Made by a program: the position numbers and the translations under genes. The notes below the pieces were generated by a model, which was not told where the DNA came from, made no database searches, and saw only the letters and a list, made by a program, of their open reading frames with translations. From Alteromonas sp. CI.11.F.A3 (GTDB lineage Bacteria > Pseudomonadota > Gammaproteobacteria > Enterobacterales > Alteromonadaceae), in NCBI RefSeq assembly GCF_032925565.1, contig NZ_CP136708.1, positions 2,914,001-2,978,000 on the forward strand: a stretch of 64,000 bases of DNA, read 5' to 3'. Position 1 is the first letter of the stretch, and each line of letters begins with the position of its first letter. Below, piece after piece: positions 6,928 to 46,783 of the stretch.

Positions 6928-9379
6928 AGTGAATAACAAACTTATAAAATTTGCCATAAAAACAAGTCAATTAGGCTTTTGCTTGGCGGTTATGGCAAGC
7001 GCTAATGCATTTGCATCAAGCTCAACCGACCTTATGCTAACAGAAACAGGTGCTGGTGTTGCTGCTGAATCAGAAACAACGTACGAATTAAACGGCCGGA
7101 CGATAAGCGTAACAATTAGTGAAACTAATGGCTTAACCGTTGCTGATAGCAAGAATATACTTGCGTCGCAAAAAGGCCACTTTGTTGCAGCCGGAAATTA
7201 CCTAATTCCTAACGAATCAGTTGGTGAATCAAGTGCCGAGGCAGAAAGTACCAATGGTCCCTTTATCCAAACCTTAGTGTTTGATATTAATAGCCAACAA
7301 ATACGTAGCTACACAATAGGCACTCAAAATACGTCAAACCACGCCATTAGCATTACCCAAACATCAGCGACTGACGTGAAAGACTCCGAAGCCTTATGTA
7401 GCGCCAAGATAGACGACAAGCTACAGTTCATCAATATAGATGCGTTGGGTATGCTCACCCAATATTTGGCTATACCGGCTAAAAGCGGTAGCGCGCTCAC
7501 GGTTCATCCGCTACGAACACTGGCGATTGGCCCAGGTATAAAAAGCTGTGCGCTTGGGGTGAGCGACCACACACCTAATTTCACCGTTTCTGACGCCAAA
7601 GTTTCTGATGCCGAAACTTCTCACGCAAGAACAAAACATATTGAGCAAACTATTTATTTGGCTGACGAATACGCCGGTGTTTGGGCCATGCCTGCAGATG
7701 AAGAAGCTGAGGTCGAGCGCACGCTCATTTTCAATCAGCCTGACACGCCGGTAGAGGGTGTCGCCACCCTTAATGGGGTTGAGGCACACAAGACGGTTCT
7801 CGCTAGCCTGATTACAAATAGCCCAGATACAAATAGATCGGCTGCAAATAGCTCACGTACAAAAAGCCCTGCTACAACAATTCTAGGTATACAAGAGACG
7901 GTTACTGCTTGGGTAAGCCCGGAACACAGTGGACTTTGGCTACACAACACGTGCGCCACAAACTTCTTTGGCTTTGATAAAGAGATAGCGCCAGAAGATA
8001 TCGTGCTGTGGGTAAAAGGCGATACGGTTCACGCCAACATCTACGATGATAACTCTGGTGGCACGCTTACCACCAACATCACCCAGGCCATTGCAACGCT
8101 AAACAGCTGCCACACAAACCAAGCATCTCTTATCAAGACACCCACCTCTTTTAACGAGACGTCTTTTAACGAGACACCCATGTTAAAAGACACAAATCTC
8201 ACTACAGAGACACCCACCCAAAACGGTGATGTATCCACTAACATCACTAACGAGACACCCATGCTTTCTGCTATAGAACTGAAGCCCATTTATGAAACCG
8301 ATGTGGTGGAGAATTATGGCGATGCAGCAGATGATCCTGCTATTTGGGTAAACAAAAACAACCCGTCTAAAAGCGTGGTGATTGGCACTAACAAAAAAGG
8401 CAGCTTAAATGCCTATAACTTACAAGGTGAGTTGGTTGCATCCCACAAGGTAGGGCGAGTAAATAACGTGGGCGTGGCATATGATTGGGCGCCGCAACAC
8501 GATATCGCGGTGGCCAGTAATCGAAGCAGCAATAGCATGTCGGTCTTTTTTATCGATAAGCAAACGGGCGAGCTAACCTTTAACACCAACATCCCTACCC
8601 CGCTAAACGATATATATGGGCTGTGCGTGTTTTCGATAAATAATCACACCCAAGTATTAGTGAATAGCACAGATGGCCGGTACTTACGCTATTTGTTGAA
8701 CGCGCCAACTGATGTAAATAGTAACGCCATCGCGAAAACTAACACAAACACCTATACCAACAATGCGAGCATGACTGAAAAGGCAGATCATTCTCAGGTT
8801 TCTGCCACCTTAATTCACGACTTTACATTACCGTCTCAACCTGAAGGATGCGTTGTGGACAGTGATGCACAAATTGCCTACTTGGGAGAAGAAGGTGCTG
8901 GCATTTGGGCGTTAGATGTTTCTGAAATAAAAACAATGCCTTCATCAACGCGCGCTAAAGCCGCAAACAAGAATGCTTCAAACAAGCTAATTAACAAGAC
9001 ACCCATGTTTATTATTCCGATTGAATCACCGGTTACCGCAGATGTTGAAGGTTTATCGTTATTTGATGTAGACGGTGTGCGCTATTTAATTGCTTCTAGC
9101 CAAGGCAATAATCAATACGCTGTGTATGAGAGCGAGGCTCCTTATAACTTGGTGGGTATGATAAGCATTGGTGCAAATTATGATAAAGGCATTGATGGCG
9201 TGTCGGAAACCGATGGGCTTGAAACCACAAACGCCAATCTGGGCGGGCCATTTAAAAATGGGCTATTGGTGGTGCAAGATGGAAGAAATGTAATGCCTAG
9301 CCAAAGGCAGAACTTTAAGTTAGTAACAGGTGATGACTTAGCTGATGCAATTCGCTCTCATGTGAGCAATCGTAATTAG
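6920..9379 (+). CDS. Two-domain beta-propeller phytase (3-phytase family), exported
   Basis: The 819-aa protein has a signal peptide (cleavage near NAFA|SSS). An N-terminal degenerate propeller domain (about 40-400) is followed by a canonical beta-propeller phytase domain (about 455-815) with the signature GDAADDPAIWVNKNNPSKS and a later EGLSLF. Beta-propeller phytases use Ca2+ to release phosphate from phytate outside the cytoplasm. The protein is longer than usual: the inter-domain linker (residues 406-447) is built from four in-frame copies of the GACACCCA(T/C) repeat (encoded KTPT, ETPM, ETPT, ETPM), and another copy lies at residues 693-696 (KTPM). Further Asn/Thr/Ser-rich tracts occur near 7800-7870 and 8710-8780. 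A good ribosome site (AAAGGAA) precedes ATG 6920. Confidence 0.9.
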   Translation: MNKVNNKLIKFAIKTSQLGFCLAVMASANAFASSSTDLMLTETGAGVAAESETTYELNGRTISVTISETNGLTVADSKNILASQKGHFVAAGNYLIPNESVGESSAEAESTNGPFIQTLVFDINSQQIRSYTIGTQNTSNHAISITQTSATDVKDSEALCSAKIDDKLQFINIDALGMLTQYLAIPAKSGSALTVHPLRTLAIGPGIKSCALGVSDHTPNFTVSDAKVSDAETSHARTKHIEQTIYLADEYAGVWAMPADEEAEVERTLIFNQPDTPVEGVATLNGVEAHKTVLASLITNSPDTNRSAANSSRTKSPATTILGIQETVTAWVSPEHSGLWLHNTCATNFFGFDKEIAPEDIVLWVKGDTVHANIYDDNSGGTLTTNITQAIATLNSCHTNQASLIKTPTSFNETSFNETPMLKDTNLTTETPTQNGDVSTNITNETPMLSAIELKPIYETDVVENYGDAADDPAIWVNKNNPSKSVVIGTNKKGSLNAYNLQGELVASHKVGRVNNVGVAYDWAPQHDIAVASNRSSNSMSVFFIDKQTGELTFNTNIPTPLNDIYGLCVFSINNHTQVLVNSTDGRYLRYLLNAPTDVNSNAIAKTNTNTYTNNASMTEKADHSQVSATLIHDFTLPSQPEGCVVDSDAQIAYLGEEGAGIWALDVSEIKTMPSSTRAKAANKNASNKLINKTPMFIIPIESPVTADVEGLSLFDVDGVRYLIASSQGNNQYAVYESEAPYNLVGMISIGANYDKGIDGVSETDGLETTNANLGGPFKNGLLVVQDGRNVMPSQRQNFKLVTGDDLADAIRSHVSNRN
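8137..8262 (+). repeat. GACACCCA(T/C) repeat array inside phytase linker, four copies
   Basis: Copies at 8137-8145 (C), 8173-8181 (T), 8209-8217 (C) and 8254-8262 (T), where the letter is the ninth base, are spaced 36, 36 and 45 bp apart. All spacings are multiples of three, so the reading frame is kept. A shortened copy (TTAACGAGAC at 8151-8160, without the ACCCAT end) precedes the second. Confidence 0.9.
8998..9006 (+). repeat. GACACCCAT repeat, single copy in phytase domain
   Basis: The context TTAACAAGACACCCATGTTT matches the extended consensus of the family. It encodes NKTPMF within a loop of the second propeller domain, just after a low-complexity stretch (KAANKNASNKLI). Confidence 0.75.
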
Positions 9380-9424
9380 TAGATGCCTGTTCTCAAACAT
9401 TAAGAAGGACTTGAGTTGTAAAGC

Positions 9425-9454
9425 AAAAGGGTAAGCGGATTGGCTTACCCTTTT
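9425..9454. terminator. Bidirectional rho-independent terminator
   Basis: AAAAGGGTAAGC (9425-9436) pairs with GCTTACCCTTTT (9443-9454) as a 12-bp stem with a 6-base loop, with A-rich and T-rich flanks. It separates the convergent phytase and CBS-domain genes. Confidence 0.85.
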
Positions 9455-9486
9455 TACTTTTAAAATACTTAAAAACACTTCAAACG

Positions 9487-9906
9487 CTAGCTAGCGCGCT
9501 GATAGCCGGATCGAAGTTGTACGTCTATTGCTCGAAGCACTGCCGTTCGGTTAATACTTCCAACCAATACCCCATCGTCGTCAACCACAGGGTAAACGCG
9601 AGGTTTATCTTTAATCAGTAATTGTGCCAGTTCTATTACCGACAGATACGGTTTAATAACCACAACCGGTGCTTTCATTATTTCAGCCACTCGGCAAATC
9701 TGCTCTCGGTAGTAACTTGACGCTATCATTTGAGCAATGCAATCTTGCTCAGACAAAAAACCAATCACTTTACCTTTAATATCAATTACTGGGCCTCCAC
9801 TTTGCCCGCAAGCCAACAAAGCCTCAACGGCTTCGGCCACTGTCATATCCCCATTTAGTTTCACGGGGTGAGTATTCATATAATCACTGACTAGCAACGA
9901 TTCCAT
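9487..9906 (-). CDS. CBS-domain pair protein
   Basis: This 139-aa cytosolic protein consists of two CBS motifs (about residues 8-60 and 75-130; ends of the repeats read VIGFLSEQDCIAQMI and LVGSINRTAVLRAI). CBS pairs bind adenine nucleotides and usually serve as energy or ligand sensors; nothing here shows the partner. A GGAGAG ribosome site precedes ATG 9906. The 252-bp upstream spacer is AT-rich and holds no gene; it should carry this gene's promoter. Confidence 0.85.
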   Translation of the reverse strand: MESLLVSDYMNTHPVKLNGDMTVAEAVEALLACGQSGGPVIDIKGKVIGFLSEQDCIAQMIASSYYREQICRVAEIMKAPVVVIKPYLSVIELAQLLIKDKPRVYPVVDDDGVLVGSINRTAVLRAIDVQLRSGYQRAS

Positions 9907-10158
9907 ATTTCTCTCCCTGCCGCGGCGTCTTTTATAGTTTTATACAGCGTGAAGACGAAACGGCACTGCTTGTTATAGTAATGATGTAACGCAATGTTAT
10001 TTTTTTGTAATCAAATTATTTTTGTTACGCTTTAAGCCTAGTAGACGATGGCTATGACAGCTACTTTTTCTATTCGATTTTACTCACTAAAAACAGATTT
10101 TAAGCAACTGTTTAAACCAAATTGCGCACTTACCACAAATGTCACATAGCATACTGAC

Positions 10159-20342: not shown

Positions 20343-20351
20343 GACACCCAT
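20343..20351 (+). repeat. GACACCCAT repeat in atoB-liuR spacer
   Basis: This single copy (context GTAGACACCCATGTTTAGATAA) lies in the 267-bp divergent promoter region, about 60 bp upstream of the LiuR-type operator. It matches the extended family consensus after the core (ATGTTTA). Confidence 0.75.
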
Positions 20352-22187: not shown

Positions 22188-23795
22188 ATGCCCGTTCTAC
22201 GTTCAAAGATAAATACAAAATCAGACACCTTTGTTGCCAACGCGCAGCATATGCAAGCACAAGTAAACGACTTGGTTGCAAAGATAGAACAAGTTTCAAT
22301 GGGTGGCGGTGCACAAGCTGCCCAGCGCCATCAATCTCGTGGAAAATTACTTCCCCGAGACAGAATTAACGCCTTAATTGACGACAACACACCCTTTTTG
22401 GAAATAGGTCAATTGGCGGCGTGGGAAGTGTACGACGATTATGTACCTTGCGCGGGTGTAGTTGCCGGTATTGGCTGTGTGTCGGGTGTAGAGTGCATGA
22501 TAGTTGCTAACGATGCCACGGTAAAAGGCGGCAGTTACTATCCGCTTACCGTGAAAAAACACTTACGCGCACAAACTATTGCAGAAGAAAACAACCTTCC
22601 GTGTATTTACTTGGTAGATTCAGGTGGTGCTAACCTACCCTATCAAGATGAAGTGTTTCCTGACAAAGAACACTTTGGCCGCATTTTCTTTAACCAAGCC
22701 AATATGTCGGCAAAGAATATTCCGCAAATTGCGGTGGTGATGGGTTCATGCACCGCTGGCGGCGCTTATGTACCCGCCATGGCGGACGAAAGCATCATTG
22801 TAAAAGAACAAGCCACCATCTTTTTGGGTGGACCACCTCTGGTGAAAGCCGCGACAGGTGAAGTAGTAAGCGCCGAAGAGCTTGGAGGTGGTGATGTGCA
22901 TACCCGTATTTCAGGGGTGGCAGACCAATTAGCGAATAACGATCATCACGCGCTATCCCTTGCTAGAAATGCGGTTTCTAGGCTTAACCGTACCAAAAAT
23001 GTCGCGTTAGATGTGGCAAAGCCAAAGCCACCTCGTTTCGATGCCAAAGAAATTTACGGCATTGTGCCTGCCGATTCGAAGCAGACTTACGATGTAAGAG
23101 AAATCATCGCTCGAGTAGTCGATGATTCAGATTTTGATGAATTCAAACCTTTATATGGCACTACGTTAGTCTGCGGTTTTGCGCGCATCTTCGGCTATCC
23201 TGTGGGCATTATCGGCAATAATGGCATATTGTTCGGCGAAAGTGCGCTTAAAGGCGCACATTTCGTTGAATTGTGCGCAATGCGTAAAATACCCCTCGTA
23301 TTTTTACAAAACATCACCGGTTTTATGGTGGGAAAACAGTACGAACATGGCGGGATAGCTAAACACGGTGCCAAAATGGTGACCGCCGTTGCATGTGCCC
23401 AAGTACCAAAAATCACCATTCTAATTGGCGGGAGTTTTGGTGCAGGAAACTACGGAATGTGTGGCCGTGGGTACGACCCAAGATTCTTATTCATGTGGCC
23501 TAATGCCCGCATATCGGTAATGGGCGGCGAACAAGCCGCTGGCGTATTGGCCCAAGTGAAGCGAGATCAAAAAGAACGTGCAGGTGAAACTTGGACCGAC
23601 GAGCAAGAACACGCCATCAAACAACCGGTCATCGACACCTACGAAAAACAAGGACACCCATATTATGCCTCGGCCAGGTTATGGGACGATGGCGTCATCG
23701 ACCCTGCTGACACCCGCACGGTGTTAGGTCTTTCGTTATCTGCGGCATTAAATCAACCTATACCCGACACCCGCTTCGGTGTCTTTCGTATGTAG
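22188..23795 (+). CDS. liuB: Methylcrotonyl-CoA carboxylase, carboxyltransferase (beta) subunit
   Basis: The 535-aa carboxyltransferase includes [40 protein letters not shown] and [20 protein letters not shown], all typical of the MCC beta chain. It carries the carboxyl group from biotin on LiuD to 3-methylcrotonyl-CoA. GGAGGGGG precedes ATG 22188. A 75-bp gap separates it from liuA. A GACACCCAT match at 23653-23661 encodes the family-conserved QGHPYYAS, so I regard it as coincidental. Confidence 0.96.
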
Positions 23796-23811: not shown

Positions 23812-24606
23812 ATGGAACAAGCTGTTACTTATCACGTAGACGAAAGAAATGTTGCCCTTATTACGCTTAACCGCGCAGACAAACACAATGCATTTAACGA
23901 TGACATGATTGCCACCTTAACCCAGCTATTTACGCGGGCCGGCAACGACAGCAGCATTCGTGCAGTAGTGCTGCAAGGTGAAGGGAAAAGTTTTAGCGCG
24001 GGTGCAGACCTTGAGTGGATGAAGCGCATGGCAGGTTTTGATGAAGCAAAAAATCACGCCGATGCGATGACGCTAGCTACCATGCTGCACACCTTATACA
24101 CCTTGCCCAAGCCTACTATTGCGCGAGTGCAAGGAGCAGCGTTTGGCGGCGCGGTAGGGCTTATCGCCTGCTGTGACATTGCCATTGGTAGCAAATTAAG
24201 TAAGTTCTGTTTAAGCGAAGTAAAAATAGGCCTTATTCCCGCCACTATTAGCCCTTACGTGATAGAAGCTATGGGCGCACGGGTTTGCAGACGTTACTTT
24301 CAAACAGCAGAAGTCTTTTCTGCCCGCCGAGCAAGACGTTTAGGTTTACTTAGCGAAGCCGTGACCGAAGATGAACTGGATAGCACGATAGACGATATTA
24401 TTCGCCAAATTTTAAAGAATGGGCCTGTGGCAGTATCGCACGCTAAAGCCTTAGTGCAGCAAGTTGCCAATGCGCCTGTTAATGCTGAATTGCTTGATGA
24501 TACAAGTAAGCAAATTGCCAAAATAAGAACCTCGAAAGAAGGTCAGGAAGGTTTGGGGGCTTTCATCGAAAAACGTACCCCAGCGTGGCAGGAGAAACTA
24601 GCATGA
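23812..24606 (+). CDS. liuC: Methylglutaconyl-CoA hydratase
   Basis: This crotonase-family protein of 264 aa starts at ATG 23812, behind a GAGGGGA ribosome site; the longer frame overlapping liuB lacks support. It contains the oxyanion-hole regions GKSFSAGADLEWMKRMA and GAAFGGAVGLIACCDIAI. In the pathway it hydrates 3-methylglutaconyl-CoA to HMG-CoA. Its TGA overlaps the start of liuD (ATGA at 24603-24606). Confidence 0.93.
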   Translation: MEQAVTYHVDERNVALITLNRADKHNAFNDDMIATLTQLFTRAGNDSSIRAVVLQGEGKSFSAGADLEWMKRMAGFDEAKNHADAMTLATMLHTLYTLPKPTIARVQGAAFGGAVGLIACCDIAIGSKLSKFCLSEVKIGLIPATISPYVIEAMGARVCRRYFQTAEVFSARRARRLGLLSEAVTEDELDSTIDDIIRQILKNGPVAVSHAKALVQQVANAPVNAELLDDTSKQIAKIRTSKEGQEGLGAFIEKRTPAWQEKLA

Positions 24607-26708
24607 TTAAAAAGTTACTGATTGCCAATCGCGGCGAAATTGCATGCCGCGTGATGCGCACAGCGAAAGCCATGGGTATACAAACGGTGGCGGTTTATTC
24701 AGACGCCGACGTAAAAGCCTTGCATGTTTTACAGGCGGATGAAGCGGTTTATTTAGGCCCTGCTCCCTCTAAAGATAGCTATTTGCGCGGCACTGCAATT
24801 ATTGAATATGCCAAGAAACTTGGTGTAGATGCCATTCATCCGGGCTATGGTTTTTTATCTGAAAATGCCGAATTTGCTAAAGCATGTGCCGCGCATAACA
24901 TTATATTTGTGGGCCCTCCTGCATCGGCCATAGAAGCCATGGGGTCTAAATCTGCAGCTAAGAAAATTATGGAAGCCGCTGGCGTACCTTTAGTACCTGG
25001 CTATCATGGTGATGACCAAGACGAAGCTACCTTGAAGCAAGCCAGCGATGCCATGGGCTATCCTGTATTACTTAAAGCTGCTGCCGGCGGTGGTGGTAAA
25101 GGCATGCGCCAAGTGTGGAAAGAAAGTGAGTTTTCGGCCGCGCTAAGTGCAGCTAAAAGAGAGTCTATGGCTAGCTTTGGCGATGAGCATATGTTGGTTG
25201 AAAAGTACCTCACTCGCCCTCGCCATGTTGAGATACAAGTTTTCTGTGACACCCATGGTAATGGTGTGTATTTATTTGAACGTGACTGCTCAGTACAGCG
25301 ACGTCACCAAAAGGTGATAGAAGAAGCACCTGCGCCTAATTTTCCTTCCAATATTCGCCAGCAAATGGGTGAAGCGGCATTGCAAGCAGCCAAAGCGATT
25401 AATTATGTAGGTGCAGGAACCGTTGAGTTCTTGTATGACGAAGACGGCTCGTTCTATTTCATGGAAATGAATACTCGATTGCAAGTAGAGCACCCTGTGA
25501 CGGAAATGATTACCGGTGAAGATTTGGTTCGCTGGCAGCTTGATGTAGCAGAAGGTAAAACGCTACCCAAAACCCAATCAGAATTAACGTTAACGGGACA
25601 CGCATTCGAAGCCCGCATTTACGCCGAAGATCCCAACAATGATTTTCTGCCCGCCAGCGGCACGCTCTCGCTTATCAAGACACCCATGTTATCAACCTCG
25701 ACTTCCTATCAAAATAGTCAGTCGCTTAACGAGACGCTTAACGAGACACCCACGTTATCTAGTCAAAATTCAGCGAGTAAAGTGCGTATTGATACCGGCG
25801 TGCAGCAAGGTGATGACATCAGTGTTTATTACGATCCGATGATATCTAAACTTGTCGTTTGGGGTGAAAATAGAGAGGCTGCGTTAAAACAACTAGTTAG
25901 TGCGCTTAAGCAGTATCATATTGACGGCGTGACCACGAATATAGATTTTCTTATCGACGTGGCTTCAAGTACACCTTTCAGTAAAGCTGAACTCACCACA
26001 ACGTTTATTGATAAATACGCTGACATTTTGTTCAACAACCAGAGCCAATCAGTAGATGTCGAGCTTCCTGCAATAGCACTTTTGTCTGTACTTTCACGCA
26101 ATCAAGGTACAGCGAAGATTTATTCACTACCATCACCTTGGGGAATTATAGGCTCATGGCGCCCCAACATGGGATATCAAGAGTCCCTGTCCGTTATGGT
26201 GAATGATGAAGTTCACTCACTCACAATAAGACATATTGCCGAATCAGGTAATACTTTGAATCAAAAGGCCATTTCTCTTAAGGTAAATACAGATAGCGAA
26301 GATATTGAGGTAACGGGTCATATTGTTGGTGATAAGTTAATTGCTTCTGTAGAGGGTGTAAGGCGTACATATCATTTCTCGAACAATGAAGGGCAATTTG
26401 GCTTGTTTGGACAAGATTCGCACTGTCACTTTAAGGTCTTAGCACCTGATATGGGAGATGACGACGACAGCCATAATGCTGCAAGCTTAGATGCGCCCAT
26501 GAATGGTACCGTAGTGGCTCATTTGGTTGCGGTTGGTGCTAGCGTAAAAAAAGATGCACCGTTACTTATTATGGAAGCCATGAAAATGGAGCACAGTATT
26601 ACTGCGCCTTGCGACGGTGTAGTGCGTGGCTATTTTTATCAACCTGGTGAATTGGTAGATGGCGGCTCAGTGCTGATTGATTTCGATTCTGACTCAAAAG
26701 GTGAATGA
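24603..26708 (+). CDS. liuD: Methylcrotonyl-CoA carboxylase, biotin-carboxylase (alpha) subunit, with repeat insertion
   Basis: The 701-aa protein has a biotin-carboxylase domain (about residues 1-445; [17 protein letters not shown] loop [30 protein letters not shown]) and a C-terminal biotinyl domain with EAMKMEHS. It carboxylates its own biotin using ATP and bicarbonate for LiuB. It is longer than the usual 650-670 residues. An insert of about 30 residues lies between PASGTLSLI and [20 protein letters not shown], where relatives have a short loop. Two copies of the GACACCCA(T/C) repeat (25679, 25745) and a partial copy build the insert in frame. The loop position suggests that the enzyme still folds. 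Confidence 0.95.
25679..25753 (+). repeat. GACACCCA(T/C) repeats inserted in frame in liuD
   Basis: Copies at 25679-25687 (T) and 25745-25753 (C) are 66 bp (22 codons) apart. The second is preceded by a tandem CTTAACGAGACG / CTTAACGAGACA (about 25725-25748), the composite form also seen at 8151-8181 and 27702-27732. The encoded peptide starts IKTPML and ends [11 protein letters not shown]. Confidence 0.9.
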
Positions 26709-27667
26709 GTGTGGAAAAATCTATGAAGACACCCACCATAAATTCGGCCACTAAGCCAACGACTCACTTTCCTTCGAAAGTGAGTATCGTGGAGGTTGGT
26801 GCCCGTGACGGGCTACAAAATGAAAAGGCGGTTCTTAGCGCGAAGGACAAAATACGCCTCGTCAATTTGCTCAGTGCCAGTGGTTTGAAACGTATTGAAG
26901 CTGGCAGCTTTGTTTCTCCCAAGTGGGTTCCCCAAATGGCAGATTCTGACGAAGTTTTCGAAGGAATTAGTCGGGTAAAAGAGGTTGTTTATTCAGCCTT
27001 AACCCCTAACCTAAAAGGGTTTGAAGCTGCGTTAGCTGTGGGCGTAGACGAAGTTGCTATATTTGGCGCTGCGTCTGAGTCTTTTTCCCAAAAGAATATA
27101 AACTGCTCAATCAGTGAAAGCTTAAAACGCTTCGAGCCTGTCATTGCAGCTGCAAATACGCATAAAATTCCAGTTAGAGGCTACGTGTCTTGTGTGATGG
27201 GCTGCCCTTATGAAGGACAAATCGCCAGCGAGTCGGTAGCGCTAGTTTCAAAGGCGTTACATGACATGGGCTGCTACGAAATTTCACTTGGCGATACCAT
27301 TGGAACCGGCACTCCTGCATCTACGGCTCGTTTACTCGAACACGTTTGCCAGCATGTACCTGGTGCCGACTTAGCCGTTCATTTTCACGACACTTATGGC
27401 CAAGCACTAGTCAATATCTACACCGCATTACAATACGGCATATTGAATATAGACAGCGCGGTTGCAGGGCTTGGTGGCTGCCCATATGCTAAAGGTGCTA
27501 GCGGAAATGTGGCGACGGAAGACGTTCTATATATGCTAAATGGACTCGGAATTGAAACTGACGTGAGTATGGATAGGCTGCTTGTTGCTACTGAATTCAT
27601 CTCTTCTGTTTTGGACAGAAAACCAGTGTCTAAAGTAGCTAATGCATTGCTTGCCAAGAAAAACTAA
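26705..27667 (+). CDS. liuE: Hydroxymethylglutaryl-CoA lyase
   Basis: The 320-aa lyase has the TIM-barrel start [13 protein letters not shown], the metal-binding region [15 protein letters not shown] and the catalytic loop [14 protein letters not shown] with its Cys. It splits HMG-CoA into acetoacetate and acetyl-CoA, the last liu step. It starts at ATG 26705, overlapping the liuD stop by 3 bases; ATG 26723 is an alternative. The first ~25 residues ([20 protein letters not shown]) precede the conserved domain and contain a repeat copy at 26728, so the N-terminal extension may be repeat-derived. Confidence 0.95.
26728..26736 (+). repeat. GACACCCAC repeat at liuE N-terminus
   Basis: The copy GAAGACACCCACCATAAA lies in the start region of liuE and encodes KTPT, the same residues as at other in-frame copies. 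Confidence 0.7.
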
Positions 27668-27701: not shown

Positions 27702-27801
27702 GCTAACTAGACGCTGTTAACTAGACACCCATCATTTAGGTGAGGGAGCTAAAGAGAACTATCAAGACCCCCATAGTAAAAGTCCACTAACCAGACACTC
27801 A
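27702..27801 (+). repeat. Repeat array between liuE and the RAYT gene
   Basis: One exact GACACCCAT copy (27724-27732) is followed by variants GACCCCCAT (27766-27774) and GACACTCAC (27793-27801), all in the same orientation, 42 and 27 bp apart. The first is preceded by a partial copy (GCTAACTAGACGC, then TGTTAACTAGACA), the composite form. The array ends about 97 bp before the transposase gene. The 230-bp spacer has no evident terminator for liuE. Confidence 0.75.
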
Positions 27802-27897
27802 CAATAAAATAGAAAGTTAATTCGATTAATTCACGCCTAAAATACAGGTTCATGAATGGTTATTGATTGCTACCATGGTTCTATATGAAATTACTGG

Positions 27898-28887
27898 ATG
27901 TTAACCGTGCCGCAATCAAGACGCAGCCAAATTAACCTTGCTGATACACCCTATTATCACTGTGTTTCACGCTGCGTCAGACAATGCTACCTATGCGGTG
28001 TTGATCAACACTCAGGAAAGAGCTTTGAACATCGAAGAGGCTGGGTCGAGCGTCGCTTACTAGAGTTAGCTTCGGTGTACTCCATTGATATTTGCGCCTA
28101 TGCGGTAATGAGCAATCACGTTCATGTGGTACTACACGTTGATAAAAAAAGTGCCAATGCCTGGAGCATAGATCAAGTGCTAACCCAATGGCACCGTATC
28201 CATAAAGGCACCCTGCTTACCCAAAGGTATCTTAAGGGTGAGCGCCTCTCTGATGCCGAAATAAAAACAGTAGCCGATACCGCTGAAGTTTACCGCCGTC
28301 GCCTGTATGACATTAGTTGGTTTATGCGAAACCTCAATGAATTCATTGCTAGGGCAGCTAATACGGAGGACGAATGCACAGGGCGATTTTGGGAAGGTAG
28401 ATTTAAATCTCAAGCTTTATTGAATGATAGCGCCCTACTTTCCTGTATGGCCTACGTAGATCTAAACCCCGTTAGAGCCAATATAGCGACAACCCCTGAA
28501 AACTCTAGGTACACCAGTATTTACTCACGTTTACAGGCACTGAAAGGCAATTCGAAGATCTCTGCCTTACTACCCTTTTCAGGTGAACGTAATCAACGCG
28601 ATATTAAAGAAATACCTATTAGACTGACTGATTACCTTGTACTCGTTGATACAACGGGAAGAATCATTCGTGATGACAAACCTGGTTATATTAATAGCAA
28701 TTACGCCCCAATACTATCTCGGTTAGGGATAAGTCAGGTTCACTGGCAGACACTTACAACCCGCTTTGAAAAGTTGTTTAGTTATGCGGCAGGCTGTGAA
28801 ACTACAATGAGGGGATTTAAGCAAAATACCAACAGGCAGCGCGCAAGGGGGATAAAAAACGCAAAATTACTTTCCAGCGCCTGTTAA
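27898..28887 (+). CDS. REP-associated tyrosine transposase (RAYT), Y1/HUH family
   Basis: The 329-aa protein belongs to the IS200-like Y1 transposase family in its RAYT form. It has the N-terminal TPYYHCVSRCVRQCYLCGVD, the HUH metal motif in VMSNHVHVVLHVD, then GRFWEGRFKSQALL and MAYVDLNPVRANIA with the candidate catalytic Tyr. Such proteins nick single-stranded DNA at REP-type repeats and are single-copy, vertically kept genes rather than insertion sequences. ATG 27898 is the longest start; GTG 27907 (giving MPQSRRSQINL) fits the family better. No transposon ends or target duplications are seen. Instead, arrays of the GACACCCAT repeat lie on both sides. A hairpin (ATACCC/GGGTAT, 28887-28911) follows the stop. 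Confidence 0.9.
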   Translation: MLTVPQSRRSQINLADTPYYHCVSRCVRQCYLCGVDQHSGKSFEHRRGWVERRLLELASVYSIDICAYAVMSNHVHVVLHVDKKSANAWSIDQVLTQWHRIHKGTLLTQRYLKGERLSDAEIKTVADTAEVYRRRLYDISWFMRNLNEFIARAANTEDECTGRFWEGRFKSQALLNDSALLSCMAYVDLNPVRANIATTPENSRYTSIYSRLQALKGNSKISALLPFSGERNQRDIKEIPIRLTDYLVLVDTTGRIIRDDKPGYINSNYAPILSRLGISQVHWQTLTTRFEKLFSYAAGCETTMRGFKQNTNRQRARGIKNAKLLSSAC

Positions 28888-29437
28888 TACCCATCTTCTG
28901 TTTACGGGTATGAGTTAGGTGGCAAAAAAACCTTATTCATTAACCTATATTTATCTTAAAAAGCCGATACCTAGTCCTTTCTTAGCCATAATACTGCGGC
29001 TTTATAATCCACTTTTCAGACCACCTAAGTAGCCTTATCCCAACCAAAATATTTGCAGAGCAAAGCGCCTGGTAAATTTCTAGTTCTGCGCGGCTAATAG
29101 AGCTATTAAGACACCCATCGTATCTAATTGAGAGTTATCGAGGCACCCACCATATCTACTTGAGTAAGAATGAGACTCATGTCTATATTAGGGTGGGTGT
29201 CCCTCGAATCTCTCGAATCTTTTTGTTTCTCTTACTACTTCAGTTAAAATTTAAATATGGGTGTCTTCGTAAAATCAGTTAAAATTTAAATATGGGTGTC
29301 TTCGTAAAATCAGATAGCCTTATAAATTAAAACTACCCTAATCCCGTTCTTATGATGGATGTCCCGTTAATTCTATACTTACTATGATGGGTGTCTTGAT
29401 AACTCGAGTCTCGTGATAACTAGTAACAACTCTCGAC
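28888..29437. repeat. Repeat-rich 550-bp intergenic region downstream of RAYT
   Basis: The region separates the convergent RAYT and GGDEF-EAL genes and has no gene. On the RAYT side the copies read GACACCCAT (29110-29118) and GGCACCCAC (29142-29150). On the other side they read GTGGGTGTC (29193), ATGGGTGTC (29257, 29292, 29387) and the variant ATGGATGTC (29355). Orientation thus flips between 29150 and 29193. A perfect 35-bp tandem duplication covers 29241-29310. A CCCTCGAATC, then TCTCGAATC short duplication lies at about 29201-29219. Confidence 0.85.
29241..29310 (+). repeat. Perfect 35-bp tandem duplication containing the repeat core
   Basis: Units 29241-29275 and 29276-29310 are identical, each with one ATGGGTGTC. 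The unit begins CAGTTAAAATTTAAAT and ends TTCGTAAAAT. A third CAG follows, consistent with slippage or unequal crossing-over. Confidence 0.9.
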
Positions 29438-32071
29438 TCAAGCAGGTTCCCGATTACCGCTTAGCGCCAACCATGCCTCGTTAGCTTCCCAGGTAGTTAA
29501 CCATTGAGAAACTTTATTAGCCGGCATAGGCTTGGCTATGCCATAGCCTTGCGCTAACTCACAACCCAAGCGGACAAGGGCAACGCCATGCTCAACCGAC
29601 TCTACGCCTTCCGCAATTACTTCTCGTTTAAATGTCTTTGCCAATCCAACCACACCTTCAACAATCGCTAAGTCATCGGTGTCGTCTAACATATCTCGCA
29701 CGAAGCTCTGGTCAATTTTGATTAAGTAAGCTGGCAAACGTTTCAGATAAGTAAGTGATGAGTAACCAGTACCAAAGTCATCTAAAGCAAAGCTCACCCC
29801 TAAATCGTGACACGCATTCATTGTCGAAGATACTTGGAAGGTATCTTGCAACGCACTGGTTTCCAGAATTTCTAGCTCTAAATAACCTGGGTCTACGTCA
29901 GGGTGAGCCGCTAACAGTGTTTCTAACCGAGAGGTAAAGTTGTCCTGCTGCAATTGATGTGCGCTAATATTCACACTTACGGGTAATAAAATACCGAGTT
30001 TCTGCCAGTGCGAAATTTGTGTTAAAGCGGCATCAATAACCCACTCTCCCACTTGCAAGCTGATACAGTGACCTTCAATAATAGGCAAAAATTCTAGCGG
30101 AGGAATTAGACCACTTTCGGGATGCTCCCAGCGAATCAAAGCTTCTACGCCAATGACTTCACCGGAACTCATATTCACCTTAGGCTGGTAGTGTAAGACA
30201 AATTCATTTCGATCCAAGGCAACACGCACATTATCAATGCTTTTATTATAAGTGTTAATCGCGTTATCTTGCTCTAAGTCGAACTGATGAAATCGGTTCT
30301 TACCTCCTTGCTTTGCAACGTACATGGCTTGGTCCGCATGCCGTATCAACTGATCAGCATCTACGTTATCTTGAGGAAAGACAGTGACTCCAATACTCGC
30401 TGATACTTGCATCACCGCATCGGCAACATTGACGGGTGCAGAGGCAGATTTAAGAAGTCGATTTAAAACGTGCTCACAGTCACTGAACTCATTCAGGTTA
30501 ACCATGATTATAATGAATTCGTCACCACCAATGCGCGCAATTGTGTCACCCGCTCTCAAGCTAGCTTTTAAGCCATTTGAGACCTCAACCAAAAACTGAT
30601 CACCGATATTGTGTCCGTAGTTATCGTTAATCGCTTTAAAACCATCTAAATCCATAAATGCGACAGCTAAGGAATTTTGTTGTAACTGACTGTGCTTAAT
30701 GGCTTGATTGAGGCGCTTAGCAAGCAAAACTCTGTTAGGTAAGTTGGTAAGCAGGTCATAATGAGCTATCCGTTCTAACTTGCCTTCATTGAGCTTAATT
30801 TCTGATATATCGGTTGAAAGCGACACATAGTGTTGAACCTGTCCCTCCTCGTCTTTAACTGCACTAATTGTGACCATTTCAGGATAAATTTCACCGTCCT
30901 TACGACGATTCCAAATCTCCCCTCTCCAGTTTCCATCAGTGTTCAGCGTATCCCACATGTTTTTATAAAACTGTGCAGCGTGACGGCCCGACTGAAGAAT
31001 TCTAGGGTTTTTCCCCAGCACTTCCAATTTGCTGTAGCCGGTGATACGGCACAGCGTATCATTCACTTCAATAATCGTGGCTGAGGCGTCGGTAATAATT
31101 ATGCCTTCGTTCGCATGAGTGAATACGCTGGCTGCACGCTTTAATGTCTCTTCGGAACGATTTTTTTCGATAGCGATACTCGCTAAACTGGCAGTCTGCT
31201 CAATTAGCGCAAGATCAGCATCAGAAGGGTAATTAATACTAGAGTGATAAATAGCGAAAGTGCCAAGCACTGCGCCCTGTGTAGAACGAATGGGTTCAGA
31301 CCAACAGGCACCTAAATTAGCCCGTTCAGCTAACGCTTTAAAATTTTTCCAGTAAGGATGAGTTTGAATATCTGCAACGATGACACGTTCGTTAGTAAAC
31401 GCCGCTGTGCCGCAAGAACCTACGCCACTACCTATTTCAACGCCATCGATAGCGTCGACATAAAAATTTGGAAGGCTTGCTCCAGTTTCACTGCGTAAAT
31501 GACTCCCAGACTCGTCGAGAAGTAAGATACTGCACATCATTTCCGGATTATTAAGCTCAACCACACTGACAATGGCATTCAAAACCACCTTTAGAGGTTC
31601 TCCGTTGGTAATGAGCTCTAAAACTTCACTACGAGTAGTTTCTCTTAACTCATTCTGCCTGCGTTTTGTCACATCACGAATTACACCAACAATAAAGCGC
31701 CTGTTGTTACGGTCGATAAATCGGCTTAATTTAACCAGTACTACACTTGCTTTATTGCCTTTTCCTTTCAGGGCTTGCTCTATAACTTTATCTTCCCCAG
31801 TTTCTAACACTTGCTTGTCGCTCTGCGCTAGCTTCACCAATTCTTGTGGGTAGATTTTATCGGAGAAAGTTTTTCCAATAAGCTTTTTTCGAGAAACGTT
31901 CACAAGCTCACAAAAAGCATTGTTAGCAACTAAAAGCTTACCCTCTCCGTCTTTAATAAATACGGGGTCAACTGATATATCTAAAAACGCGTTAAGATAA
32001 CCCTCTAATTCCTCAGGATCCTTAACTGGCAAGCCTACCGATTCATTTTGTAGTTGGTGTTTATAAGACAT
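29438..32071 (-). CDS. PAS-GAF-PAS-GGDEF-EAL c-di-GMP signalling protein
   Basis: The protein of about 877 aa has no membrane segment. It contains a PAS (about 25-140), a GAF (about 150-305; GVGSCGTAAFTNERVIVADI), a second PAS with PAC (about 310-430), an intact GGDEF motif (RIGGDEFIIIM) and an EAL domain with GVEALIRWEHPESGL and LDDFGTGYSSLTYLK. Both c-di-GMP synthesis and hydrolysis motifs are kept, so the net activity cannot be read from sequence. The frame extends to a TTG at 32083, but ATG 32071 is the more likely start. Its 3' side faces the repeat array. Confidence 0.93.
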   Translation of the reverse strand: MSYKHQLQNESVGLPVKDPEELEGYLNAFLDISVDPVFIKDGEGKLLVANNAFCELVNVSRKKLIGKTFSDKIYPQELVKLAQSDKQVLETGEDKVIEQALKGKGNKASVVLVKLSRFIDRNNRRFIVGVIRDVTKRRQNELRETTRSEVLELITNGEPLKVVLNAIVSVVELNNPEMMCSILLLDESGSHLRSETGASLPNFYVDAIDGVEIGSGVGSCGTAAFTNERVIVADIQTHPYWKNFKALAERANLGACWSEPIRSTQGAVLGTFAIYHSSINYPSDADLALIEQTASLASIAIEKNRSEETLKRAASVFTHANEGIIITDASATIIEVNDTLCRITGYSKLEVLGKNPRILQSGRHAAQFYKNMWDTLNTDGNWRGEIWNRRKDGEIYPEMVTISAVKDEEGQVQHYVSLSTDISEIKLNEGKLERIAHYDLLTNLPNRVLLAKRLNQAIKHSQLQQNSLAVAFMDLDGFKAINDNYGHNIGDQFLVEVSNGLKASLRAGDTIARIGGDEFIIIMVNLNEFSDCEHVLNRLLKSASAPVNVADAVMQVSASIGVTVFPQDNVDADQLIRHADQAMYVAKQGGKNRFHQFDLEQDNAINTYNKSIDNVRVALDRNEFVLHYQPKVNMSSGEVIGVEALIRWEHPESGLIPPLEFLPIIEGHCISLQVGEWVIDAALTQISHWQKLGILLPVSVNISAHQLQQDNFTSRLETLLAAHPDVDPGYLELEILETSALQDTFQVSSTMNACHDLGVSFALDDFGTGYSSLTYLKRLPAYLIKIDQSFVRDMLDDTDDLAIVEGVVGLAKTFKREVIAEGVESVEHGVALVRLGCELAQGYGIAKPMPANKVSQWLTTWEANEAWLALSGNREPA

Positions 32072-33347: not shown

Positions 33348-33953
33348 GCTCTTTCCCAACATGAATTAACACAATTACGATTGTTGCTATCCAACAAACC
33401 AACCGCTGATTACTTTAGCGTTACTTAACGGACTTTGTACGAAATAAACCCAAAACTCGATCACGCTGTGTTCAATGGCAATATATCTTACTAACACACT
33501 GAATAACCCTAACAATTAGGCCAATTTAAAATACAAATCTAAACGTGTCAGCCTTAGGACAGACTTAGCGAGACACCCATCATAAACTAACTATTTCACA
33601 ACTCACTTAACTACAACCATCAGTGTTACTTAGAACTTCACCTTATCTGCTTCACGCTAACATGGGTGTCTCTGTAAAAACATTATCGAGTGAACGATAA
33701 CGTGGGTGTCCTGGTAACACGCTCAAAATCATGGGTGTCTCGTTTACTCTTGTGAGCCGACCTAATCATGGGTGTCTTCATAACGCCAATAACACCATCT
33801 AGCTGCACTTTAAATTCCATTCATCTGATTTCTATCGTCCAAAATGAAAAAAGCCAAGTACGCTTTGGAAAATTTCCATATCAGCAAACTCAGCTTAGTC
33901 AGAAGTTAAAATCATTTGACACTTTTGCGCTGCGCAAAAGCTTATCGAGGTTA
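33348..33953. repeat. Repeat-rich intergenic region, five copies
   Basis: This stretch of about 600 bp has no gene. It contains GACACCCAT at 33572-33580, then ATGGGTGTC at 33662, 33731 and 33768 and GTGGGTGTC at 33702, the latter four spaced 40, 29 and 37 bp. The four read GACACCCAT on the strand of the preceding gene (the minus-strand SRPBCC gene). A hairpin lies at 33922-33940. The part from 33363 to 33571 should include the MFS promoter; nothing else is seen there. Confidence 0.8.
33922..33940 (-). terminator. Hairpin downstream of SRPBCC gene
   Basis: CTTTTGCGC and GCGCAAAAG are perfectly inverted around one base, so the real loop must open some pairs. It lies 14 bp past the minus-strand stop, but no T-run follows. 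Possible terminator or mRNA-end stabiliser. Confidence 0.45.
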
Positions 33954-36997: not shown

Positions 36998-36999
36998 AG

Positions 37000-40232: not shown

Positions 40233-40299
40233 TTTGACTGTGAGTGTTGGACTAGAAGATTAGCTAGAAAGGCACTTTGGAATAAATTCTGAAATGAAG

Positions 40300-40332: not shown

Positions 40333-40334
40333 CA

Positions 40335-41180: not shown

Positions 41181-41547
41181 TTAGGTATACGCTCCTGATA
41201 TAACCTACTCTATTTAGAAGAGTGGCGTTTAGCAATCACGCCAAGAAATAAAAACTGTAACTATCAAACAAGATTAGCTTTTTCGCTGATAGCTACATTA
41301 TAGCGCGATTATTTAGCCTAGCTAATCGGAATTCATTATCTTTCGTATAGTATGCAATAAATTAACATACATTTAATGCAGCCCTAATAGGGGTACCCCC
41401 CAATATTTGGGTAATTTTTCAAAAATTCCTGTTGATAATAGAGTTTCATTTTCTTTATTTCCCGCTGTGCTACTATTTCGCGCTTTACACATTCAAGCAC
41501 AGGTAACTATGTTACAGAGAATGTTACAAGGCATGTCAAAAGGCATA
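41181..41547. other. 367-bp spacer between HDOD gene and glycosyltransferase
   Basis: The spacer lies between divergent genes. It holds a short palindrome (GGGGTACCCC, 41390-41399) and AT-rich sequence that should contain two promoters. The frame upstream of ATG 41548 is open but looks non-coding. Nothing else is seen. Confidence 0.5.
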
Positions 41548-43299: not shown

Positions 43300-43374
43300 C
43301 GCTTAGATTCTGTCATCGCATAAGCTACAGCGGTGGATGTCATAACTAGGCATTTGTAAAACAGAGCCCAACAG

Positions 43375-43779
43375 TTAAGCACTTGCATCTGCGCTAAATT
43401 CTGCGCTTAGCTCTTCTGCTGTCATGACTAGGTTTTCGGCATCAGCAGAGGTAGGAAACATAACCAACTCCACACCATTTTTAGTTAAGCCTGGTAACCA
43501 CGTTTCAGTAAACTCATCAAATGGCACTGCCACACACGTACCTGTAATTTGATTATCGTCTAACCAAGCTTGCGCTAAGTTATTGTGAGGAAATACTGGC
43601 AGTCGAGTACTATCGTTGTCTTCCAGCATGACAAAGCCTTCTGTACCTTGAATCAACCAAATTTCTTTCGCTTTGGGTACGTAGCTGATCACTAGCATTT
43701 GTCGGTCTTCAGCAGACAAACTTTTAGCTTGCGCTAGCACAGTGTCGTTCAGGGTGGCAGTTACAGTATCTGGAAACAC
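43375..43779 (-). CDS. DUF2750-like protein
   Basis: The 134-aa protein resembles DUF2750: an aromatic core (KEIWLIQGTEGFVML), an Asp/Trp region (AQAWLDDN) and a C-terminal stretch TWLPGLTKNGVELVMFPT. Function is unknown. It starts with GTG 43779 (AAGG 9 bases upstream). It lies 75 bp before sufE on the same strand. Confidence 0.6.
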   Translation of the reverse strand: MFPDTVTATLNDTVLAQAKSLSAEDRQMLVISYVPKAKEIWLIQGTEGFVMLEDNDSTRLPVFPHNNLAQAWLDDNQITGTCVAVPFDEFTETWLPGLTKNGVELVMFPTSADAENLVMTAEELSAEFSADASA

Positions 43780-44073
43780 AAAAATTTACCTTATTATTTA
43801 GGAGGCACCGATAAGAGGCGCCAAGTATACCCTTTGCATGCTGCCGCGCCAAATACCAGAGACGATTTAATCTTATAAAGACAGTGAACATTCAAGTTGA
43901 AAACATGGCCCGCGACTAATATTATTGCACGCTATATTATGTAACCTTAGCTTCTGTTTTACGCTTTGGTTGCAAAACGCACTCCACATGCTCCTTGTCA
44001 GTTAGCAATCTGCATTTCTTGGTAGTACCGTTCATCCGCCTTTTATTAATAAAAACGCAAAGTTTAGAGCTTC

Positions 44074-44751
44074 ATGCAAAACCTATTTAGTGACCTAAAA
44101 GAAAAAACGCATAACAAACATGTCGAATTAGAGCACAGTGCACCCTTTGCACTTTTTCATAACATGATGGGTAATAGCGCCAGTGAAACCCAACACGAAC
44201 ATCGAGAAAATTATCATAATGTGCTCTGCGTTATGCGAGAGTTCCACCAGCATTGCATGTGGGTTATCAACGATGCAGTTAAGAAGTATCCCGCGCTTGT
44301 GCCCTTATCGCAGCAGTTCGAAGCCCAAGCAGTTTTAATTGCCCTTGATAACGACTTAACGGTATTGAACTCAAATAGCGCAAAGTGCATAACTGAATTA
44401 CAAAACGTTGACGTGCCAAGTTTTGAAACCGCACTGTCTGCCGCTATTTCAGCGATGTATGTGTGGCTAGGATCGTCTATGGGCGCTAATATTATTAGCC
44501 GCAGGCTAAGTAAAACAGACTACGATTTTCCTACTCATTACTATCAATCGATGGCAATACAAGCCAAAGCGTGGCCCGAATTTAAGCAAGAAGTTGCGCG
44601 TTTATTACCCATAATAATTGAAGCCAGCAAAGCAGAAACTTACATTGGCGAAACGCTAAGCGATGCTATTATTAACGATGCTAATCTTTGGTTTGAGCAT
44701 CTTATTTTATTAGGAAAAAGCACAAGTTTGCCACCACAGACATTAAGTTAA
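44074..44751 (+). CDS. Heme-oxygenase-like protein
   Basis: The 225-aa protein resembles bacterial (BphO-type) heme oxygenases. The N-terminal LKEKTHNKHVELEHSAPF would supply the proximal-His region, and MYVWLGSSMGANIISRRL matches the distal-helix glycine motif. Typical enzymes open heme to biliverdin, iron and CO. No bacteriophytochrome or iron-uptake gene is next to it, so the role is open. Divergence from canonical sequences is considerable. Confidence 0.68.
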   Translation: MQNLFSDLKEKTHNKHVELEHSAPFALFHNMMGNSASETQHEHRENYHNVLCVMREFHQHCMWVINDAVKKYPALVPLSQQFEAQAVLIALDNDLTVLNSNSAKCITELQNVDVPSFETALSAAISAMYVWLGSSMGANIISRRLSKTDYDFPTHYYQSMAIQAKAWPEFKQEVARLLPIIIEASKAETYIGETLSDAIINDANLWFEHLILLGKSTSLPPQTLS

Positions 44752-44800
44752 ACCCAGCATTCTGTTAGAATTCCTTTAATCCGTATTTTAAGAAGCTCTT

Positions 44801-45610
44801 ATGAAAGTAATCTCATTTAATATCAATGGCATTCGTGCCCGTCTTCACCAACTTCAAGCATTAATAGATGCGCATGAGCCGGATATTATTGGCTTGCAAG
44901 AAATTAAAGTTCACAACGAACAATTTCCGGTAGAAGCAGTTGAAGCGATGGGATACCACGTTTATTTTCATGGCCAAAAAAGTCACTACGGCGTGGCATT
45001 TTTAGCGAAAAAAGAGCCTGAGTCTGTGCTTATGGGCTTCCCTACCGATGAAGAAGATGCACAGCGTCGCATGATCATCCTGAAAACCACTGACAACGAC
45101 GGCCAGCCTGTAACCGTATTAAATGGTTACTTCCCACAAGGCGAAAACGAAAAGCACGAAACCAAATATCCAGCAAAACGTAAGTTTTATAAAGATTTGA
45201 TGACTTATCTGGACACCCACCATACTCCTGATGAGAATGTCATCGTAATGGGTGATGTGAACATCTCGCATACCGATTCAGATATTGGTATTGGCGAAGA
45301 AAACAAAAAGCGCTGGTTGCGTACCGGTAAATGCAGTTTTCTACCCGAAGAAAGAGAATGGCTCAACACATTGATGGATTGGGGTTTTGAAGACAGCTTT
45401 AGAACGTTAAATCCAGATACAACCGACAGGTATTCGTGGTTCGATTATCGTTCAAAAGGGTTTAATGATAATCGTGGCCTTCGTATTGATCTTATTTTGG
45501 CAACTGCACCTATTCATAAACGACTGAATGATGCCGGAATAGATTATGAACTTCGCGGTATTGAAAAGCCGTCGGATCATGCACCAATTTGGGCTACTTA
45601 CAGTAAATAG
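44801..45610 (+). CDS. xthA: Exodeoxyribonuclease III
   Basis: The 269-aa enzyme of the EEP family has [16 protein letters not shown] with the metal-binding Glu, [15 protein letters not shown] and SDHAPIW. It cleaves AP sites and degrades duplex DNA 3' to 5'. A GACACCCAC match at 45212-45220 encodes DTHHTP, which appears native to the protein. Confidence 0.96.
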
Positions 45611-45649
45611 TAAATAATAAATGTTCCGTAATTATCAATCGGAGTGTAT

Positions 45650-46291
45650 GTGACAACGCTACAGTGGCTTGGCCTAACTTTATATTGTTTAACCCTAGTT
45701 GGGGTTATTAAACAAATTTCTGTTGTAGGCCTAATGGGTGACAAACACCAACAGCACCTGCTGTTTGGTAGTGCTGCTGCGTTGTTCGCGTTCTGGATCT
45801 TCAAAGTGGGTATTTTTGAAGGGCTAGATGTTCACTTTGTTGGCTTAAGTGTGGTTACACTTATGCTCGGGTTTAGATACGCAATTCTAGCTGGAACCCT
45901 CGCTCTGCTGGGCGCTACCGCCGCTGGTTTTGCGCAGTGGCAAACCTTAGGAATTAATGGCGTATTAGGGGTAATGCTTCCTGTCGCGGTAACCTACTTC
46001 GTTTATTTATTGTCGTTTCATCACCTGCCTCGCCAACTTTTCGTTTATATTTTTGTGTGCGCTTTCTTTCCAGGCGCACTTAGCATCGCCCTTAAAACAG
46101 GCGCTCTTGCCGGTTATTATTTTGTTGAAGGCATTTACACGTGGGATGTTATTTACGACAACTTCGTACTGCTTATTCCACTATTAGTATTTCCAGAAGC
46201 CCTGCTTAACGGTATGGCAATTACGCTACTCGTCATCTATCAGCCCACCTGGGTTTACACCTTCCACGACAAATTTTATTTCGACAATTAA
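45650..46291 (+). CDS. CbiM-like energy-coupling-factor transporter permease
   Basis: The roughly 213-aa membrane protein has several helices and the CbiM-like stretch SVVTLMLGFRYAILAGTLAL. CbiM-family proteins are substrate-capture components for cobalt or nickel in ECF-type uptake, and no partner ATPase or transmembrane unit is next to it. GTG 45650 has GGAG 5 bases upstream; GTG 45644 overlaps that site and is less likely. The repeat array begins 17 bp after the stop. Confidence 0.72.
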   Translation: MTTLQWLGLTLYCLTLVGVIKQISVVGLMGDKHQQHLLFGSAAALFAFWIFKVGIFEGLDVHFVGLSVVTLMLGFRYAILAGTLALLGATAAGFAQWQTLGINGVLGVMLPVAVTYFVYLLSFHHLPRQLFVYIFVCAFFPGALSIALKTGALAGYYFVEGIYTWDVIYDNFVLLIPLLVFPEALLNGMAITLLVIYQPTWVYTFHDKFYFDN

Positions 46292-46596
46292 ATAAAACCA
46301 TAAACAAGACACCCATGTTTATCTCACCCTTAATATTATCGAGACACCCATCTTTAGAACCTTGGTAATTTGAAAGAGATTTACATGGACACCCATGCTA
46401 ACCAACACCCAACTGATGTTAATTACAGACCACCTTATTATTACTAATCATAAGCTTACTAATATTACACTCGTAACTTTTTGGCATTATCATTATAAAG
46501 ACACCCACGTTTGCAATCTTAAAAATTACCAGGACACCCACCCTATATTGATAAGCATAAAGATGGGCGCCTCATTGATTCTGGTGTTGAATAAAC

Positions 46597-46704
46597 ATGG
46601 GTGTCTTGATAAGAGAATGCCGAAATAACATGGGTGTATTGATAAGAGAATACCGAAATAACATGGGTGTCCTGATAAGAGGATACCGAAATAACATGGG
46701 TGTC
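46597..46704 (+). repeat. 33-bp tandem repeat, three full copies and a partial fourth
   Basis: Units begin at 46597, 46630, 46663 and 46696, each with ATGGGTGTC (46630 ends A instead of C) followed by TTGATAA or CTGATAA and a GAATACCGAAATAAC-like tail. The period is a multiple of three, so an open frame encodes an 11-residue repeat (MGVLIRECRNN). A real peptide is unlikely, since this is a repeat array. Confidence 0.9.
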
Positions 46705-46721
46705 TTGATAATTACGGGCAC

Positions 46722-46750
46722 AAAAAAACCGCCTGGTTGGCGGTTTTTTT
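46722..46750. terminator. Bidirectional rho-independent terminator
   Basis: AAAAAAACCGCC (46722-46733) and GGCGGTTTTTTT (46739-46750) pair around a 5-base loop. It is 34 bp from the phosphoribosyltransferase stop. A repeat copy follows directly (46751), so the repeat abuts the terminator. Confidence 0.88.
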
Positions 46751-46783
46751 ATGGGTGTCTTTGTAAAAAGCTAGCGCGTAGCC

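Follow-up and report, generated by a model that had tools for sequence, protein, structure and literature searches.

A short sequence, GACACCCAT, is crowded into a 64-kb stretch of the genome of Alteromonas sp. CI.11.F.A3 (NZ_CP136708.1, positions 2,914,001 to 2,978,000; the whole stretch is called the window below), and the question it raises is what these copies are and how they came to lie there. The window also carries a gene for a RAYT-like HUH/tyrosine transposase of 329 amino acids (27898..28887, + strand). We consider it quite probable that the sites are solitary or tandem copies of the terminal tip of the element carrying this RAYT, the probable mechanism being that the tip is cut as a single strand and rejoined nearby. 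On both strands of the window, 23 exact copies of GACACCCAT are present, against a mean of 0.30 and a maximum of 2 in 100 dinucleotide shuffles, which rules out a chance origin and agrees with an earlier note on this DNA that had placed their number far above chance. The 21 copies which that note held not to be due to coding are these 23 minus the two located inside reading frames, at 23653 and 25248, and its eight further copies ending in C are the nine GACACCCAC copies (8137, 8209, 25745, 26728, 29193, 33702, 45212, 46500 and 46533) without the one at 45212, inside a reading frame. The one- or two-base variants that it mentioned exist too, several one-base variants of the core being found at 27766, 27794, 29142, 29355 and 46630. 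Its five clusters and its extended form were likewise recovered, the logo of 144 sites from four species reading tTA.caA|GACACCC|Atg.Ta.

The repeat is real, and it is local to RAYT genes rather than genome-wide. The whole genome (4.66 Mb) holds 61 GACACCCAT against 45 of the reversed motif, so that GACACCCAT outside the window, where 38 of the 61 lie, is close to background. Yet for 36 of the 61, one of eight full-length RAYT genes is no more than 20 kb away, a zone covering 6.3% of the genome, and with the window excluded 13 of 38 still fall in the RAYT-near 5.5% (binomial p 6e-8, clustered sites not being independent). These counts and this concentration rule out a genome-wide repeat family, and the word dispersed, used earlier for the copies, does not hold at genome scale. 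A genome-wide count near chance had also been named as what would speak against the family: the count is near chance outside RAYT neighbourhoods, and it is read here as local deposition, not as refutation.

The comparison of genomes with and without the RAYT gene, proposed in the earlier note, ties the family strongly to the gene. The liu locus is present in 40/40 genomes of the genus set, 32 of which were compared (G002, G005, G006, G011, G016, G017, G023 and G034 were left out, short contigs being among the reasons), and copies were counted up to 30 kb from liuD, with 20-60 kb of sequence available per genome. Fourteen of the 32 Alteromonas genomes carry the RAYT 2.1-2.5 kb from the liuD midpoint, and each of them has 25-56 GACACCCA in 38-60 kb. 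The 18 others lack it at this locus; 17 of them have 0-4 GACACCCA and one, G020, has 18, the reversed-motif control giving 0-5 across the 32. In 5-kb bins from -30 to +20 kb, the density amounts to 0.35-1.72 GACACCCA per kb in the 14 genomes, except for 0.01 at -15 to -10 kb, and to 0-0.08 in the 17 RAYT-less genomes (G020 apart). In the RAYT tree, the liu-locus RAYT of CI.11.F.A3, that of Alteromonas sp. IB21 and L051 form one group (SH-aLRT 97), and since they do so the liu-locus RAYT is probably one old resident, with the reservation that these three rows have long branches.

The same comparison bears on the idea that a host regulator or nucleoid protein of the liu region binds at these sites, the RAYT being a bystander. 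The liu operon does lie in the middle of the site region, and right of the RAYT, where there are three intergenic clusters, cores seem better conserved between species than spacers (8-mer identity 0.96-1.00 versus 0.61-0.82), a difference that the alignment of arrays may inflate; under a strict flank filter, intact cores were 5/7, 10/14 and 6/12 versus 0.43, 0.38 and 0.34 for random 7-mers, all small numbers. However, 17 of the 18 genomes with the same genes but without the RAYT have no such sites, the same motif clusters amid different genes at other RAYT loci of this genome, another RAYT uses GACAGGCA, and the repeats are arrays inserted into coding as well as intergenic DNA. We regard a host binding site as very unlikely.

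The genome of CI.11.F.A3 contains eight full-length RAYT copies. Of seven RAYT loci, six are accompanied by clear local clusters, in which two tips are used, and the seventh is weak. GACACCCA is found 33, 14, 19, 14 and 12 times within 20 kb of five of these loci, while the RAYT at 2.624 Mb has 10 GACAGGCA and a single GACACCCA within that distance. The flanks of GACACCCA sites separate the five loci, 56 of 93 sites being assigned to their own locus when shuffling gives a mean of 19.6 and a maximum of 32. The stretch C1:296648-305100 contains, within 10 kb, two complete RAYT genes as well as partial ones, with 16 GACACCCA within 4 kb, and looks like a recent local expansion. No empty site for a whole RAYT element was obtained between this genome and its nearest relative, G062: the stretch that corresponds to the 2.624 Mb RAYT has different content there, and the flank of the 0.30 Mb RAYT pair has no match in it.

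The repeat is the end of the element. In Paraglaciecola chathamensis, the upstream sequences of four RAYT copies become homologous exactly at GACACCCA and are unrelated ahead of it. In a sample made of the best 80 of 592 confirmed RAYT matches (the named loci, with 78 upstream flanks), GACACCC was observed upstream on the + strand at 39/78 and on the - strand at 3/78, and downstream on the - strand at 30/80 and on the + strand at 0/80; on the corresponding strands, the reversed motif was present at 5/78 upstream and 1/80 downstream. GCCACCC behaves similarly (18/78 upstream, 21/80 downstream). A 7-mer control in the opposite orientation was dropped, as it duplicates the GACACCC strand test and is therefore no true control.

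Where both flanks have a tip, the two agree: 26 loci are GA/GA, 18 are GC/GC and one is GA/GC. On the RAYT tree (n=61 rows) the GA and GC versions switch 4 times, against a mean of 17.0 and a minimum of 12 in 200 shuffles, and no single RAYT residue clearly explains the difference. Loci without either version have other local repeats (GACAGGCA, GACAGTCA, GCCAGCCA). The same G.CA..CA 8-mer was found inverted on both sides of the gene at 53/80 loci, each of seven control patterns being found at 0/80. Eight tip versions were distinguished, of which those found at one locus may be due to chance. Between 0.5 and 4 kb from the RAYT, a locus has 0.195 copies of its own tip per kb (69 copies over 354 kb) and 0.029 of other tips; from 4 to 10 kb the values are 0.044 and 0.032. 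Close to the gene, the loci are enriched for their own tip version, in which G.CA..CA is constant and the inner bases vary.

Orthologous places free of copies, which the earlier note had proposed to look for, exist for liuD and for the clusters at 33.6 and 46.5 kb. In liuD (24585-26708), two copies on the + strand (25679 and 25745, within 25672..25753) lie in an in-frame insertion of 69-81 bp that is specific to a species group; it adds 27 residues here and 23 in the sisters G062, G010 and G033, a 12-bp duplication being present only in this species among the four, and it is absent from 14 other species (18 proteins compared, with the DNA of 12). The intergenic cluster at 33.6 kb (33565..33783) has copies on the + strand at 33572 and on the - strand at 33662, 33702, 33731 and 33768. 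In the four sister species its space measures 563-717 bp and contains 5-9 copies; of 25 other genomes, 23 have 36-228 bp there and two have 334 and 1028 bp, none with a copy, which makes a net gain of several hundred bp relative to these relatives. The intergenic cluster at 46.5 kb (46301..46766) has copies on the + strand at 46308, 46343, 46388, 46500 and 46533 and on the - strand at 46597, 46630 (variant), 46663, 46696 and 46751; its space is 467-667 bp with 9-13 copies in the four sisters, and of 24 other genomes nine have 23-172 bp, one has 337 bp and 14 have 2.7-4.6 kb of other content. Among the four sisters, clusters occupy equal places and differ by units gained or lost within them. 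Neighbouring copies up to 160 bp apart are convergent in 12 cases and divergent in none in the clade of this genome, and convergent in 36 and divergent in 6 in the G024 group, species not being independent in either count.

Such gains and losses of units between sister species could also come from passive spread, in which replication slippage and local duplication alone multiplied one or a few insertions, the protein staying idle after the first insertion. Perfect tandem units of 33 bp in the 46.5 kb cluster (46594-46711) and of 35 bp downstream of the RAYT (29240-29313) fit this, as does the 12-bp duplication in liuD of this species, and slippage probably acts inside arrays. Nevertheless, slippage cannot account for copies of a single tip at distinct genes as far as 20-30 kb away, nor can it yield opposite orientations or a distinct tip for each RAYT locus, and passive spread alone appears improbable.

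Copying of the element tip, the reading preferred here, would proceed as follows. The tip of the window element is GACACCCA, an 8-mer and one of the versions of G.CA..CA, the tip of the whole family, which stands inverted on both sides of such genes. Probably the transposase binds single-stranded DNA, cuts it at the tip and joins it again a short distance away, and for this reason copies would gather around the gene. They would often appear first as convergent tip pairs and later as tandem arrays, growing by slippage or by repeated action of the transposase. The observations above establish the association with the gene, the identity of the repeat with the element end, the match between the tip of a gene and the repeats around it, net insertion and locality, while the production of the copies by the RAYT protein, its action on single strands and the cause of the local confinement are inferred.

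Several observations weigh against this explanation. Among the four closest species there is no new cluster place, and no transposition event was seen. The tips adjoining the RAYT of the window are partly degenerate, and the right end of the P. chathamensis element is less sharp than the left. In the genome of CI.11.F.A3, the RAYT at 3.199 Mb has no tip in its near flanks, with two GACAGTCA within 4 kb and seven within 20 kb, and around the RAYT at 1.963 Mb the reversed motif, too, is elevated (6 within 20 kb). Of the 80 sampled loci, 27 have no matched tip pair, several of them with other local repeats, and the G.CA..CA pattern was defined after the data were seen. Finally, the named GACACCCA loci show no excess beyond 4 kb (9 copies at 4-10 kb versus 11.1 for other tips), so that the 20-30 kb reach of the window locus is not shared by all loci.

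The protein itself has the features expected of the RAYT or TnpAY1 class 2 enzymes, as judged from its sequence: a HUH motif and a single catalytic tyrosine in Y---NP, the residues H74, H76 and Y186 together with YV.LNP being invariant across 39 aligned homologues. Its scores stay under the cut-offs of Pfam Y1_Tnp (19.8 bits, cut-off 23) and NCBIfam REP_Tyr_transpos (41.8 bits, cut-off 80). Its relatives number thousands (8000 candidates scored), many being named RayT among the matches listed, and the AlphaFold2 model has a mean pLDDT of 84.9 and a pTM of 0.87. A PHROGs search with the protein gave no match, and a search of PDB sequences gave nothing convincing (best E 0.042, an unrelated protein). 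Two other genomes, G057 and G026, have 47 and 20 RAYT matches, an IS-like expansion of the gene family.

By length, WE, YVDLNP and host range, the protein is a candidate member of TnpAY1 subclass 2.3, described by Quentin et al. 2018 (PMC6006769) as enzymes of about 325 amino acids with WE, YVDLNP and NHYH, found in Alteromonadales with several diverged copies per genome; its HuH motif is NHVH instead of the consensus NHYH, the commonest form in our alignment being NHTH. According to that paper, neither automatic nor manual search found REP-like sequences for subclasses 2.1 and 2.3, whereas a tip repeat is found here.

This tentative subclass assignment also counts against reading the repeats as canonical REPs or REPINs that belong to an ordinary RAYT; REPIN theory is treated in PMC8049555. 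A RAYT-type protein is present, as are inverted pairs, clusters and higher copy numbers where the gene is, and gene-cognate repeats are likewise known from RAYT groups 2 and 3 (Nunvar 2010; Bertels). REPs are moreover described in PMC2817692 as accumulating near rayt genes in three marine gammaproteobacteria and Thauera, so that locality is not new in itself; here, however, it is the rule at the loci tested, and the genome-wide spread of canonical REPs was not found. The site logos contain no GT[AG]G foot (GTAG or GTGG), and there is no conserved strong hairpin, the conserved part being the 8-mer itself. When ten single sites were folded as DNA, eight were no better than shuffles and two (8173 and 46308) were better, so that a simple hairpin at every site is not supported, though inverted pairs and flank complementarity are present. 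A canonical REP/REPIN population is disfavoured and very unlikely.

The complementarity recalls another system. Three facing pairs form stems (z -2.7, -1.1 and -1.5), and the outer (TTA..) and inner (..TAA) tip bases are complementary at offset 0, at 0.518 versus 0.385 in shuffles for 56 left ends (z 5.3) and with z 2.6 for 51 right ends. At the other offsets, z ranges from -3.9 to 0.9 on the left and from -3.4 to 2.1 on the right. This would fit a weak dyad or, by analogy, the guide-target pairing of IS200/IS605 as presented in PMC8266576. HUH/tyrosine catalysis would be a further likeness to IS200/IS605, but the tips here are inverted instead of forming different hairpin ends, and no strong subterminal hairpin was found at single sites.

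There is also a likeness to the TIRtrons and their TIRYT genes (Di Nocera et al. 2013). In the parts of that paper available (PMC3733652), inverted tips flank a tyrosine transposase gene, as at the 53 loci above, and tips also occur solitary, paired or grouped elsewhere in the genome. The motif GGGGWSAS, which some but not all TIRtrons have, differs by eye at 2 of 8 positions from TGGGTGTC or TGGGTGGC here; Alteromonas and Marinomonas are not mentioned in those parts, and 20 of 26 TIRtron examples are assigned to subclass 2.1 in PMC6006769. The system is of a known kind, that of RAYT/REP and TIRtron. No paper naming the core was found in a search of open-licence PMC papers, in line with the earlier remark that no named family is known to have it. 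Scanning the window against Rfam brought no hit that reached the gathering scores, nor was there any for 28880-29480 up to E=1. A transposase subclass thought to be repeat-free would gain a cognate repeat with a readable code, constant at G.CA..CA and variable at inner bases, that tracks the protein lineage. Because one genome holds at least two tip versions, protein-DNA specificity and local versus global spread of REP-like sequences become testable. Tip copies also explain in-frame protein insertions such as that in liuD, and the data suggest that a little-studied enzyme group makes or keeps its own repeat neighbourhood within tens of kb of its genes.

Whether such neighbourhoods are kept by selection is a more tentative matter. 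In G020 (contig C26:10001-90000, L160-L163), 18-19 tips lie near liu with no RAYT or remnant of it there, and their cores look decayed relative to RAYT-bearing sisters. Of the aligned cores of G060, 15/38 are kept in G020 and 40/44 in G013, which is more distant and has the RAYT; the paired comparison gives 16 to 1 (p 3e-4, raw alignment). After strict filtering the values are 12/20 for G020 and 75/85 for four pooled, non-independent species (Fisher p 0.006, paired p 0.07-0.25). Decay of cores after RAYT loss is suggestive, being strong in the raw data and weak after filtering, and it concerns one lineage. It is conceivable, though we rather doubt it, that the RAYT and its 40-odd sites form a selected, domesticated local chromosome domain, for example replication-linked or single-strand-handling and ending sharply at +20 kb by mfd, instead of mere mobile-element debris, with intact tips kept only while the matching RAYT is present and each lineage having its own G.CA..CA address.

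At the right edge of the site region, 46784-49448 next to mfd, the 14 genomes with the RAYT show a drop in tip density at +20 kb, from 1.72 to 0.02 and then to 0.00 per kb. Close to the gene, an upstream tip cluster on the + strand (27717..27802; GACACCCAT at 27724, variants GACCCCCAT at 27766 and GACACTCAC at 27794) lies 104-174 bp before the RAYT start, and a downstream one (29103..29402), between the RAYT and an EAL-domain gene, has copies on the + strand at 29110 and 29142 (variant) and on the - strand at 29193, 29257, 29292, 29355 (variant) and 29387. Within a phytase-like gene (6920-9379), four + strand copies (8137, 8173, 8209 and 8254) form a cluster (8130..8262) also found in G062 and G010 and partly in G033. 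A single copy in the same gene (8998..9006, + strand) and a single GACACCCAC near the liuE start (26728..26736, + strand) are both kept in four species and are candidate members.

Three + strand look-alikes are ordinary sequence and not family members. The one at 20343..20351 is a single A-to-G change, not an insertion, in a promoter-like stretch where most aligned relatives have AACAC(C/T); that in liuB (23653..23661) has the exact core only here among four species, its three sisters having GACATCC; and that in the liuD coding sequence (25248..25256) has the same codons in four species. A few of the sites in the earlier list are therefore part of coding or promoter sequence. In G052, a genome without RAYT, 38 loose matches had looked like a counterexample; they are a different sequence, TTATCGAGAAACACATGTT, which is unchanged at each of the 38 places and in most cases begins or ends a fixed 139 bases away from where a contig stops. 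It is another repeat, probably a mobile element at assembly breaks.

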